Below are positions 10,669 to 15,266 of a stretch of DNA of 64,000 nt, piece after piece; position 1 is the first letter of the stretch; each line of letters opens with the position of its first letter. The translations under genes were made by a program, and so were the position numbers. Source of the stretch: Deltaproteobacteria bacterium (lineage in GTDB: Bacteria > Bdellovibrionota > Bdellovibrionia > Bdellovibrionales > JAMPXM01). The stretch spans positions 496,001 through 560,000 of the forward strand of contig JAFLCB010000001.1 of the NCBI GenBank assembly GCA_017302795.1. Direction: 5' to 3'. Under the pieces are notes generated by a model that had not been told where the DNA came from, searched no databases, and saw only the letters and a list, made by a program, of their open reading frames with translations.

Positions 10669-10708
10669 GTCGGTCCGGCGTTCTGCAATCGAGCTGTTTT
10701 AAAAGCAA

Positions 10709-10736
10709 AAAAGCGGCCCAACAAAGGGTCGCTTTT
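10709..10736. terminator. Bidirectional intrinsic terminator between etfA and a convergent gene
   Basis: AAAAGCGGCCC (10709-10719) pairs with GGGTCGCTTTT (10726-10736), with one G-U wobble and a six-base loop. T-rich sequence follows the stem on both strands, so it can end both etfBA (plus) and the Gly/Asp-repeat gene (minus). Confidence 0.8.
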
Positions 10737-10784
10737 ATTAAAGAATCATTTGTTCAAGATGCCTTTTAGCCGTGAATTTAGGTC

Positions 10785-11306
10785 TTACGCTCCGCCGTCA
10801 CCGCCACCGTCACCGCCACCGTCACCGCCGCCATCACCGCCACCATCACCACCGCCGTAATATGGTAGCTGAGTTGGCATTGGAGCGAATATTGATGGAA
10901 TGATACTGAAGATTACCGTATTTAAACTTCGCTCGTAAGTTCTTGCGACTCGCCCACAACCATCAATCTGCAGAACGCCACCGTTTGTGTCGTACATCAA
11001 TTGAAAATTATTGGGATCCGAACAGCGACGGGCATCAGATTCCAAGTTGGCAACACGCGCATTCAAGGCTGTCGCTTTCTGATTAATAGTAGTGATCTTA
11101 GATTCCGCGATCGTGACCCGTGAAGTGACAGAACTAAGTCTCGATTCTGCGCTTACAACTCGCGAGTTCAGTGAGTTGATTTGAGACTGAAGCTGCGAGT
11201 TGGTCTGAGCGCTCACTTCAGTCGTGCCCATCATAATCAGGGCGCCGCCTAGCAGGGCCACCAATGTTGATCCGGTCTTTTTCTTCTGCTTCGTAAAACC
11301 TGTCAT
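10785..11306 (-). CDS. Secreted coiled-coil protein with Gly-Gly-Gly-Asp repeat tail
   Basis: A 173-residue protein of unknown role. A basic N-terminus (KQKKK) and hydrophobic core ending TEVSAQ (about residue 34) form a signal peptide. Residues about 35-92 form an alanine/serine/leucine heptad coiled coil (SQINSLNSRVVSAESRL and similar), like the trimeric stalks of lipoprotein or tail-fibre proteins. A short globular part with two cysteines (ARRCSDPNN, IDGCGRV) follows. The C-terminus is five GGGD units plus GGA. GGGGGA lies before the ATG. It has no operon partner. The design suggests a surface or periplasmic fibre-like protein (inference). Confidence 0.65.
   Translation of the reverse strand: MTGFTKQKKKTGSTLVALLGGALIMMGTTEVSAQTNSQLQSQINSLNSRVVSAESRLSSVTSRVTIAESKITTINQKATALNARVANLESDARRCSDPNNFQLMYDTNGGVLQIDGCGRVARTYERSLNTVIFSIIPSIFAPMPTQLPYYGGGDGGGDGGGDGGGDGGGDGGA
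10791..10856. repeat. 12-bp coding tandem repeat (GGGD units)
   Basis: Five imperfect 12-base units plus a half unit, of the pattern (on +) gtc-acc-gcc-acc with synonymous changes, encode the Gly-Gly-Gly-Asp tail of the minus-strand gene. Codon differences between units show they are not freshly duplicated. Confidence 0.8.
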
Positions 11307-11518
11307 AAATCCCCCAGTTCTTTGTTGTTGATCAGAACATGACCTAAGTACTTAGCAATTCTGCGACCGGGATTTTTCACGTAATTTCAATATCTTGGCG
11401 CGGTGCGCTCTGGCTACCAACTGAGCACCGACAGTTTCATTTCAGTGCAAGCCTCGTCTAAAGGGTCGATATTTCGAAATTTTTCTTCCGTGTCGATTCT
11501 ATGAGCGGCATCGTGAGT

Positions 11519-11547
11519 TTGACATACCAGTCCGCGACGCGACGAAT
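11519..11547 (+). promoter_or_regulatory. Possible promoter of the HTTM-propeller operon
   Basis: A perfect -35 hexamer TTGACA (11519-11524) is followed after 17 bases by ACGAAT (11542-11547), a poor -10. It lies 23 bases before the first start codon of the three-gene operon. Spacing is ideal but the -10 matches only half the consensus. Confidence 0.3.
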
Positions 11548-11569
11548 TCTGTCATGCAGAGGATAAGCT

Positions 11570-14020
11570 TTGAGAATGAAAAATTACTTCAACTATCAGG
11601 TCCAGGAAATTTCCGTTTCGCGTGCGCTTCGAATTTATGGCGCGGCACTTTCTGGAACTCTTGTCGTTACTGCGATTGCCTGGTGGGGACTTGCGCCGAA
11701 TGTTTTTGATACGGCAAGTTTACCTCTGTGCTGGCCGCAGTTTCCTTTTTGTACCGACATCAGAATGTTCTGGTCTGAATCAGTCATTAAAGTCCACGTC
11801 CTATTGATCGCGGTTTTCGGGCTCTTGGGTGTCGGTGCGTTTTTCAAAGCCAAATCATCGCTTGGATATTGGGCCCTTACCGCCGGGACTGTTTTGAAAG
11901 TTCTAATGCAAATTCAAGATTTTCGGTTCATGGGCAACTACCACTACATGCCCTACTGGCTGATTGCTATTTTCCTTTTTCTTCCGCATAAACGAACGGC
12001 GTTGCCGTGGATGATCGTCGCGTTCTACATTTCTGCTGGTTCGCTTAAATTTAATCGCGAGTGGCTAAGCGGTGCCACCCTCCTCCGGCAATCCTTCATT
12101 CCACTCGATTTAATGGGACCCTTGTTGCTGTACGCGATTGTACAAGAATGTATAATCGTTTTCGGGCTTGTTTCCCGTTTCAAATGGTTTTTTCGCTTTG
12201 CCTTTTTCAACTTCATCGCGTTTCACTTGTTTAGCTGGCACATCGTCGGCTGGTTTTACCCCGTCATTATGTTCCTCGTTCTTTCAATCTTTCCGTTAGT
12301 TCAAAAAGAGTCCGGATCACTTTTCTTCATCGAAGATCTTAAAGATCGCTCAAGGTCGTTTCCGAAATCGGCGCTCGCGGCGCTTCTTATTTTCGCCGCC
12401 ATCAATATCTATCCGCATCTTCTTCCAGGCGAGGCCGCATTGACGGGCAATGGAAGAATGATGGGTCTTAACATGCTGGATGTTATGCCAAGCTGCCGAC
12501 ACACTCTGTTCTTACGTTATAATAAAGACGGCCGAATAAATGAAACCGTCGAGTGGACGAATTCGCTTGTTGGCCTTGCGCCGAGAATCAAATGCGATCC
12601 GATTGTTTTTTGGAATCTCGCGAAGGAAATTTGCCAATCGGAAGCCTCGAACAAAGAGTTTCTGAACCTCGACATGGCACTTTTAGCCAAGCGCCAAACA
12701 GATGGTGCCTATCGACGCATTTTTGCTGTGAAAGACTTTTGCACGACCGGGTCTCCGCCAAACGTGTTCTTCCCAACTCCTTGGGTTCTTCAAGAGTCCG
12801 AAACAACTGTTAGGGCTCGCGAGTTAACCGAGCTAAAAACCGTTGGCCCCGCCATTCATTTCGACAAAATTCCGTTCTCGGCACCGGAAACCAAATTTGT
12901 TCGGCAGTTCCGAGAAAACCACTTGCGAGATGGGGTCGATGCAGATCCGACTGCGTTCGATGTCCGCGCAGCTAAGGTTCTTTGGCGCCAACCGATTGGG
13001 AATGTCGGAGTTCACACAGCGTCGAAAGCAAGCGCGATCGCCGATGCAAGCGGTGTTTACATCGGCTCGGACTCATCTTGGTTTTTCAAATTTTCCCACG
13101 ACGGTGATTTACTCTGGCGCATTCGCCTCGGGCCTGCTGATCGCGGCGTTCACAGCACAGCCGCACTTGATGATCAATATGTGTATGTCGGTAACTATGC
13201 CGGAACCGCATACGCGCTCGACAAATTCACTGGGAAGGTCATCTGGGTAACCAATCTTGGCGATACTATTGGGTCTTCGTTTTTGCTAGACGGAAAATTT
13301 CTTTACGTGTCTGTGGAAACCTTCAAACCAAATGGATACCTCGTTCAACTGGATCGAGCCACCGGCGAACTCCGTTGGGCCTCGCGTTTACTTGGCGAAC
13401 AAGGCCACTCATCTCCGGCACTACATCGCGAAAGCGGGCTTTTGTTTGCCGGCTTTAACAATTTTCTTTTTTATGCCATTAAAGCCACCAGCGGAGAAAT
13501 TGCGTGGAAGCAGCTAGCTCAGCGACCGATCAAGTCGACACCCCTCGTGTTCAAAGATCAGGTCGTCGTTTCTTCTTCAGACGGCTGGATAAGATCCTAC
13601 GAGGTCTTTGGCGGAAAAACTCTTTGGGAAACGAAGGTTTCCTCCGGGGAATTTCGTTCTTCGCCGACCCTCGAATCTACCGAGGGTGGCGGCACTGCGC
13701 TCATTAGCTCTTCCCTCGGCGAGATCATTTCGATAAATTTAAAGGACGGCAAGATTGCTAGACGTCATCAATCAAAATCCAAGTCGCAACTTATTGGAAG
13801 CCCGCTCTCGGTCGCGATTACAGGCGGTCGAGCTTTAATTACTGGTTGCGAGCTGAATGCCATTTGCGCTTTTGGCCAGCGCGGAAATAAGCTGAACGAA
13901 TGGAAGCTCAACGGTGCTACGACCGGCCAACCAGCCCGCTTTGCGAACTCGATCTATGTGGTTGAAGACGCGAACGGCGAGGACTCAGGAGATCTTGTGA
14001 AAATTGGAGTGCCGGAATGA
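11570..14020 (+). CDS. HTTM-like membrane domain fused to PQQ-type beta-propeller
   Basis: An 816-residue two-part protein. Residues about 20-285 contain six to seven hydrophobic helices with features of the HTTM/vitamin-K-carboxylase-like family (ALPWMIVAFYISAGSLKFNREWLSG at about 144-168, NYHYMPYW before it). A region of about 180 residues with several cysteines (about 286-465) follows, probably outside the membrane. Residues about 465-816 are a beta-propeller of PQQ/BamB-type blades: repeated Asp-x-x-Thr-Gly-x-x-x-Trp units (ALDKFTGKVIWVTNLGD, QLDRATGELRWASRLLG, IKATSGEIAWKQL, SYEVFGGKTLWETKV). Without quinoprotein catalytic context the propeller may be purely structural. The start is TTG 11570 (AGAGGA six bases upstream) or ATG 11576. 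It overlaps the next gene by ATGA. Family calls are from motifs only. Confidence 0.7.
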   Translation: MRMKNYFNYQVQEISVSRALRIYGAALSGTLVVTAIAWWGLAPNVFDTASLPLCWPQFPFCTDIRMFWSESVIKVHVLLIAVFGLLGVGAFFKAKSSLGYWALTAGTVLKVLMQIQDFRFMGNYHYMPYWLIAIFLFLPHKRTALPWMIVAFYISAGSLKFNREWLSGATLLRQSFIPLDLMGPLLLYAIVQECIIVFGLVSRFKWFFRFAFFNFIAFHLFSWHIVGWFYPVIMFLVLSIFPLVQKESGSLFFIEDLKDRSRSFPKSALAALLIFAAINIYPHLLPGEAALTGNGRMMGLNMLDVMPSCRHTLFLRYNKDGRINETVEWTNSLVGLAPRIKCDPIVFWNLAKEICQSEASNKEFLNLDMALLAKRQTDGAYRRIFAVKDFCTTGSPPNVFFPTPWVLQESETTVRARELTELKTVGPAIHFDKIPFSAPETKFVRQFRENHLRDGVDADPTAFDVRAAKVLWRQPIGNVGVHTASKASAIADASGVYIGSDSSWFFKFSHDGDLLWRIRLGPADRGVHSTAALDDQYVYVGNYAGTAYALDKFTGKVIWVTNLGDTIGSSFLLDGKFLYVSVETFKPNGYLVQLDRATGELRWASRLLGEQGHSSPALHRESGLLFAGFNNFLFYAIKATSGEIAWKQLAQRPIKSTPLVFKDQVVVSSSDGWIRSYEVFGGKTLWETKVSSGEFRSSPTLESTEGGGTALISSSLGEIISINLKDGKIARRHQSKSKSQLIGSPLSVAITGGRALITGCELNAICAFGQRGNKLNEWKLNGATTGQPARFANSIYVVEDANGEDSGDLVKIGVPE

Positions 14021-14616
14021 ACCTCCGTAATTTCTCGTTCTTGTTCTCTGCGGAAACTTATTTGCTGTTTATACTATTGTCGGCCTTCACTGCCCCGCCG
14101 GCGAAAGCGCAAGTTACAACCCCGGTTGATATTGTCTATCACTATCGCGATGGCGGTTGCTTCAATGATCAGCGAGAACGCGGCAGAAACGCCGGCGCGA
14201 TGGTAGAATGCGGGGCCCTCAAGGGGCGCGTCGCTTTTGGCCTTGCGGGCGTCGATCTCGTTGGTTTTTTCGGTCAATATCTCTATATCCCAAACCTCCT
14301 CTTCCTTAAAATCCGATTCGCCAACACACGTCTCGAGTTAGCGAAGTTTGACCAAACCAAAATTTCTGATTCGGACGTCACCAGTTCAGACTGGCGAGGT
14401 GCGCTGATGAACGGTGTTGAATTTGATAACACACGTTTCAAGGATGTCGATTTTCGCGGCGTGAAACTAAATAATGTGACTTTCCGCAACAGTGAATTGA
14501 AGAATGTAAACTTTGAGGGTGCAACTTTTTATAGAGTTAGATTCATCAATACTCGGACAGAAAATTTGAATATGAATTTCGTCTCCAAGAGTTTTGTCTC
14601 GGGCCTCCTCCCATGA
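14017..14616 (+). CDS. Secreted pentapeptide-repeat protein
   Basis: A 199-residue protein with a signal peptide (hydrophobic core about residues 10-27, ending APPAKAQ). Two cysteines (GGCFND, VECGALKG) lie in a short N-terminal domain. Residues about 90-190 form a pentapeptide-repeat solenoid with the A(D/N)LXX-type pattern: DWRGALMNGVEFDNTRFKDV, then DFRGVKLNNVTFRNSELKNV and NFEGATFYRVRF. Such proteins make right-handed quadrilateral beta-helices and serve as scaffolds. Its start overlaps the stop of the propeller gene (ATGA) and its stop overlaps the start of the acyltransferase gene (ATGA), so all three are translationally coupled and probably act together at the envelope. Confidence 0.75.
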   Translation: MNLRNFSFLFSAETYLLFILLSAFTAPPAKAQVTTPVDIVYHYRDGGCFNDQRERGRNAGAMVECGALKGRVAFGLAGVDLVGFFGQYLYIPNLLFLKIRFANTRLELAKFDQTKISDSDVTSSDWRGALMNGVEFDNTRFKDVDFRGVKLNNVTFRNSELKNVNFEGATFYRVRFINTRTENLNMNFVSKSFVSGLLP

Positions 14617-15266
14617 AAAATCCTGCTTTGCGATGGCTTGCGCCCTGGCTAGGGTTCGTGATTTACAAAATTCTCTACAGCACTTGGAGAATCTCGATCA
14701 GCGAACCCCCCGAGATGCGCGAGGCAATCAAAGCCGGCACAGTTACTTTCGCTCACTGGCACGGAGATGAGCTTGCCATCCTCTATCTCTTGAAGCCGTA
14801 CCGCGCATGCGCCATAACCTCGATCAGCGCCGATGGCCAAATCATGCACAAAGTAATTCAGCTCATGGGCTCGACAACATCACGCGGTTCAAGTTCTCGG
14901 GGCGGGGTCAGCGCGATCCGAGGAATCCTTCGTCTAACAAAAGAGGGTTGGAACCCAAGTGTTGCTGTCGATGGTCCAAAGGGCCCTCGACACAAAGTGA
15001 AAAGCGGAGTTTTCGAAATTTCCAAACTGACTAGCTCGACGATCTACCCTCTGACTGCTGCGTGTGATCGCGCCTGGCATTTTCCCAAAGCTTGGAATAA
15101 AACCTACCTTCCAAAGCCCTTTGCCAAATTGAGCATCGTCTTTGGTCCAGCACTTCCAGCCGTTAGTCGAGAGGAAGATGCGCACGACGTCGCTCTTGCC
15201 TCACGTCTTGAAGTGGCCCTCTTCGATGCAGAGCGCCACGCCCGGCACCTTCTTGCTGGCACCTAA
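14613..15266 (+). CDS. DUF374-family lysophospholipid acyltransferase-like protein
   Basis: A 217-residue protein of the DUF374/LPLAT-like group. Visible family features are HWHGDELAILYLL near residue 50 (the acceptor His motif region), TSISADGQIMHKVIQLMG, SSRGGVSAIRGILRL and the conserved VAVDGPKGPRHKVKSGVFEISK (about 114-135), with YPLTAACDRAWHF after it. An N-terminal hydrophobic stretch (about 7-22) would place it at the inner-membrane face. It probably acylates a lipid or lipid-A-like substrate; the substrate is unknown. It is the last gene of the coupled trio. Confidence 0.8.
   Translation: MKNPALRWLAPWLGFVIYKILYSTWRISISEPPEMREAIKAGTVTFAHWHGDELAILYLLKPYRACAITSISADGQIMHKVIQLMGSTTSRGSSSRGGVSAIRGILRLTKEGWNPSVAVDGPKGPRHKVKSGVFEISKLTSSTIYPLTAACDRAWHFPKAWNKTYLPKPFAKLSIVFGPALPAVSREEDAHDVALASRLEVALFDAERHARHLLAGT

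Follow-up and report, generated by a model that had tools for sequence, protein, structure and literature searches.

To our knowledge, the bacterial proteins related to human vitamin K carboxylase GGCX (VKGC), an enzyme that combines an HTTM domain (PF05090) with a luminal domain (VKGC_lumenal_dom, PF22777), have no established protein substrates. An HTTM protein also acts in the SdpA-SdpB-SdpC system of Bacillus subtilis, where it matures a secreted peptide, and in the PEP-CTERM/exosortase and MYXO-CTERM systems proteins are sorted by means of a C-terminal tail. For the MAT fibres of Bdellovibrio, the field has yet to settle which surface element holds them; the main text of the paper on these fibres mentions neither pentapeptide proteins nor operons and describes no link to HTTM proteins (PMC10769870). 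Within the collection of papers that we searched, none linked Bdellovibrio with HTTM, and none linked the HTTM domain with pentapeptide proteins. The locus described here, from Bdellovibrionota, combines an enzyme resembling vitamin K carboxylase with dedicated partners in the periplasm and a candidate C-terminal tag for substrates, and is apparently an undescribed system. It was identified within the window, by which we mean the whole stretch of 64,000 nucleotides that was analyzed, and consists of the following features.

10669-14612, no strand: inserted cassette as a whole, about 3.9 kb, lying between etfA and the DUF374 gene (synteny in relatives)
10785-11306, minus strand: 173-aa secreted coiled-coil protein with an Asp-Gly-rich C-terminal tail, the candidate substrate, missing along with the rest of the cassette from same-genus genomes
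11570-14020, plus strand: ORF1, the HTTM-propeller fusion, 816 aa from a TTG start
11570-12817, plus strand: HTTM / vitamin K-carboxylase-like membrane domain, ORF1 residues 1-416, with transmembrane helices and a periplasmic domain
12860-14020, plus strand: BamB/YxaL-type beta-propeller, periplasmic, fused to the HTTM domain (Pfam, AF2 and fold matches)
14017-14616, plus strand: ORF2, secreted pentapeptide-repeat protein of 199 aa (Pfam), with an ATGA overlap with ORF1
14613-15266, plus strand: ORF3, DUF374 acyltransferase-like gene, 217 aa (Pfam), outside the system

The genes of the cassette are thus those for the 173-aa protein, which is divergently oriented, for the HTTM-propeller fusion, and for the pentapeptide protein. 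The three frames of ORF1 to ORF3 and their two ATGA overlaps were read from the sequence at exactly the positions given in the first-pass annotation, which had passed over both the divergent gene for the Asp-Gly-tailed 173-aa protein and the vitamin K carboxylase fold. An ATG at 11576 is no worse a start for ORF1 than the TTG and agrees with the homologues.

The locus resembles SdpABC in that an HTTM membrane protein adjoins a secreted precursor, and a second pair in the genome of the window (G000) is ordered like sdpC-sdpA-sdpB; it differs from SdpABC in showing no sign of a toxin and no match to the SdpA family, and in having the additional propeller and pentapeptide partners. The resemblance to PEP-CTERM and MYXO-CTERM lies in unrelated secreted proteins that share a short C-terminal motif tracking one membrane enzyme. 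Here, however, the enzyme is GGCX-like rather than a sortase or rhomboid, and the tail lacks the hydrophobic segment and basic end.

Gene order in relatives defines the limits of the system. ORF3 matches DUF374 (Pfam, E 9e-20), and a DUF374 gene was found in 39 of 40 relatives, beside ppiC wherever both genes were placed. It stands directly after etfA in relatives with clear gene calls (G002, G004, G005, G010, G012, G024, G039 and others); in G008 and G006 other ORFs were called between etfA and DUF374, with no cassette homologue among them. Because DUF374 follows etfA in relatives, the window carries an insertion at 10669-14612, and four same-genus genomes are without this cassette of about 3.9 kb (gene order examined in three of them). 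The first-pass annotation had proposed a three-gene system, including the DUF374 acyltransferase, for modification of an envelope lipid or protein. The ATGA overlap at 14613 speaks for that version, but whether or not relatives carry the cassette, their DUF374 gene is found by ppiC and, where the order is clear, immediately after etfA, and in G010 and G031 the DUF374 and HTTM genes are far apart or on separate contigs. Synteny rules out DUF374 as a member of the system: it is a single conserved housekeeping gene, the ORF1-ORF2 overlap is a genuine unit, and the ORF2-ORF3 overlap is a mere insertion junction. The three-gene version is accordingly extremely improbable. A lipid substrate likewise found no support, whereas a surface-protein substrate does have support (see below). 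The GC content of the cassette is level with its surroundings and no tRNA was found, so that neither gave a mark of horizontal transfer; no convincing flanking repeats of the cassette were found, and promoter and terminator scans gave sites no more numerous than in shuffled sequence.

Both periplasmic partners could be assigned from Pfam. Residues 494-801 of ORF1 form a PQQ_2/BamB-type propeller (E 3e-28), the AF2 model of which (pLDDT 86) matches BamB/YxaL. The propeller shares with BamB an 8-bladed periplasmic fold, but it is not a lipoprotein and scores 95 bits against the BamB equivalog TIGR03300, below the cut-off of 285.2. ORF2 is a pentapeptide repeat protein (PF00805/PF13599, E 5e-13) with an A(D/N)LXX-type solenoid and an apparent Sec signal peptide, in agreement with its earlier assignment as an exported protein. 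Against the gyrase-protecting Qnr/MfpA family it scores 23 bits compared to a cut-off of 240, and it also seems to be exported.

The membrane domain was recognized through its predicted structure. Pfam gave no HTTM (PF05090) match in the window protein, for which residues 1-416 were empty and the gathering score was not reached; PF05090 was weakly matched in family members from relatives (best E 2e-4). A 12-row profile (A1) searched against PDB sequences returned human GGCX at E 0.13 and one chance sequence only, and profile A2 returned no matches among these sequences. The AF2 model of residues 1-416 (pLDDT 81) matched human GGCX by Foldseek (E 3.6e-6, prob 1.00), with a Z score of 18.4 over 364 residues compared to 8.1 for the best unrelated chain. 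The model thus predicts that the N-terminal 416 residues of the fusion have the fold of the vitamin K-dependent carboxylase GGCX, the sole strong match, with the likeness extending over the whole domain including the luminal part. Together with the PQQ_2 match in ORF1, the family members and the GGCX structure match bear out the HTTM-propeller fusion of the first-pass annotation.

We also examined the residues of the active site, using for the mapping a GGCX fragment identical to the PDB chain. Alignment with hhalign pairs K160, W165, and F218 of the window protein with K218, W223, and F286 of GGCX, of which K218 is the catalytic base and W223 and F286 are quinone-pocket residues (PMC12589487). 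At the TM4 Glu-pocket motif of GGCX (H160/N159), the window protein has NYHY in place of NHxY, but the register, and with it the placement of the TM4 histidine, is ambiguous by one. The catalytic lysine is conserved in HTTM proteins at large, and K160 is therefore no proof of carboxylation. The window protein differs from GGCX in several respects: identity is 12%, the position of K217 is occupied by Leu, the propeller is fused (fused or paired in relatives), and the associated tails contain Asp, whereas GGCX modifies Glu. Pfam also found no PF22777 in the window protein. The class also has separate, true VKGC orthologues, one at L149 (1495-2862), which carries PF05090 and PF22777, the latter at E 3e-50, and lies upstream of a TonB-receptor-like gene, and another at L150 (1477-2691), near a di-heme-peroxidase-like gene. 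These neighbors suggest that canonical bacterial VKGC may function in metal uptake. Across the family of the window protein, six cysteines are nearly invariant, which would suit an oxidising periplasm.

Within the class, 55 of 144 genomes have HTTM homologues, most of which are fused to a propeller or paired with one, and the family occurs in 56 of 369 genomes of the phylum, 55 of them within the class, to which it is thus almost confined. In relatives, the HTTM-like part and the propeller are again encoded either side by side or in a single fused gene, and a gene for an exported pentapeptide protein often adjoins them; pentapeptide homologues adjoin 33 HTTM genes. Of the trio that had been proposed, the HTTM, propeller, and pentapeptide parts are therefore conserved together in relatives, and their envelope role is supported, but DUF374 is not conserved with them. 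Conservation of individual residues was surveyed in 67 family members, among which every one of the 33 pentapeptide-linked copies retains K160, N123, H125, W165, F218, H219, P231, R296, M302, and four Cys. Copies linked to pgsA, which are without pentapeptide genes, have all lost R296 and M302 and often K160, and retain the cysteines and the propeller. The pgsA-linked copies form one clade with 100/100 support, and the window protein lies near the copies of G010 and G012. Because the site is kept in all 33 pentapeptide-linked copies and lost by the pgsA-linked ones, retention of the active site tracks the pentapeptide partner; some copies without a pentapeptide gene still retain the site. The pgsA-linked clade is likely a pseudoenzyme branch. 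HTTM-propeller pairs next to pgsA that have lost active-site residues (family f4) are located at L028, L030, L078, L079, L083, L087, L090, L091, L093, L096-L102, and L110. A broken HTTM gene copy adjoins an open propeller frame at L026 (6561-7216, G012:C18), suggesting that the cassette is dispensable.

The retained residues bear on whether the cassette performs chemistry at all. It could be an assembly or anchoring platform for fibres and minor pilins, with the HTTM domain as scaffold and the propeller and pentapeptide proteins docking the fibre without covalent chemistry. MAT fibres and prepilin-like genes are common neighbors, the surface element holding the N-terminal domains of MAT fibres is unknown (PMC10769870), the propeller resembles BamB, a non-enzymatic scaffold, and the pgsA clade persists despite its decayed active site. 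Intact catalytic and quinone-pocket residues in 33/33 pentapeptide-linked copies are hard to explain for a scaffold, however, and we consider the platform rather unlikely.

Neighbors of the HTTM loci are often surface proteins, including MAT-type fibres, S74 fibres, prepilin-like proteins (PF07963 was found in two), and lipoproteins. A MAT, prepilin-like, or Asp-Gly-tailed gene lies within 6 kb of 28 of the 33 pentapeptide-linked loci compared to 0 of the 17 pgsA-linked loci, a count in which prepilins were recognized by a simple pattern that admits some false hits; at 5 of the 33 no candidate substrate was found nearby, partly owing to short contigs. Many unrelated neighbor proteins end in Asp-Gly(-Cys) tails, such as GGDCGDGGGDCGN and NDGDGDGDGN, the carriers being MAT fibres, prepilins, a lipoprotein, and small secreted proteins. 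A tail on every substrate can be rejected, several loci having S74 fibres or prepilins alone. In lipoproteins encoded beside the cassettes, the lipid cysteine is immediately followed by a common motif, approximately C-x-x-x-A-x-[LI]-[EQ]-x-[LI], a possible sorting signal (L021 1772-5110, 8127-8759, and 13253-18166; L025 5782-6354; L113 9468-10031).

Of 510 distinct ORFs lying no more than 4.5 kb from a family member, 20 have Asp-Gly tails, versus 1 of 434 elsewhere (p 6e-5), with a tail definition that was fixed after the first examples had been seen; ten MAT orthologues inflate this count, and counting them once gives p 0.0075. The single outside tail belongs to the genome of the window and has a different Pfam-HTTM gene at a distance of about 0.6 kb. 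In a sample that covered 1.26 Mb and 1,122 ORFs of this genome, and in which the window and 2 of the 60 stretches had been picked for HTTM genes and the others had not, two tails only qualify, each beside an HTTM gene. On G000:C5 at about 38-41 kb (L174 / L197), a secreted 132-aa Cys-rich protein with the tail DDGGRGGDGDGGGL is followed by a 168-aa protein and then a Pfam-HTTM protein. The tail of the 173-aa window protein (GGGDGGGD...) is encoded at 10785-10858 by a 12-base tandem repeat with synonymous differences, so its length could change fast between strains; across 60 genomes, GDGGGDG formed a C-terminal tail only at the window's match and was internal elsewhere. Immediately upstream of paralogue 2 of the cassette is the gene for a MAT-type fibre that ends in CDGDGDGF. 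An 8-residue tail with its stop adjoins HTTM paralogue 2 in all ten genomes that have this paralogue and occurs in no other of the 144, and nucleotide differences within the tail all fall at third codon positions, indicating that the tail peptide is under selection.

We infer that the Asp-Gly tail is a substrate or recognition signal. It might instead be a Ca2+-binding or trimer-terminating element that is independent of the enzyme, with co-location arising from shared surface-protein islands, as these islands hold many surface proteins and DGDGDG resembles Ca2+-binding loops. But the tails are on unrelated families and their occurrence follows HTTM genes from two subfamilies, and such an enzyme-independent element is, in our judgment, unlikely.

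Quinone supply was assessed from pathway genes. Of 60 genomes, 56 have menD, a gene of the classical menaquinone route, and the futalosine route was found in 0 of 25. VKOR was rejected as a diagnostic partner; it is present in all 60 relatives and thus uninformative.

We give roughly even chances to the cassette being a periplasmic, menaquinone-dependent maturation device that acts on Asp-Gly-tailed surface proteins. The HTTM domain would be a divergent enzyme of the vitamin K-carboxylase type; the fold, the conserved catalytic and quinone-pocket residues, the gene linkage, and the menaquinone pathway gene argue for this explanation. Tail-bearing surface proteins would reach the periplasm, where the propeller and the pentapeptide solenoid may hold or present the substrate, in the window presumably the adjacent 173-aa protein. 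With reduced menaquinone and K160 as the catalytic lysine, the HTTM domain would produce a strong base within the membrane, and the menaquinol-fed enzyme would modify the Asp-Gly tail itself or a residue close to it. The example of GGCX makes carboxylation a possible modification, in this case of Asp. A more specific proposal, which we regard as distinctly unlikely, is that the vitamin K (menaquinone)-dependent enzyme converts Asp in the tails to beta-carboxyaspartate, a bacterial counterpart of the Gla domain through which Ca2+ would tie fibres, pilins, and lipoproteins to the surface.

With this locus, one vitamin K-carboxylase-related subfamily now has dedicated partners and a concrete, testable candidate substrate tag. 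The hosts belong to lineages whose surface fibres help determine the prey that is attacked, and the cassette suggests a new route by which surface fibres of bacteria may be completed.
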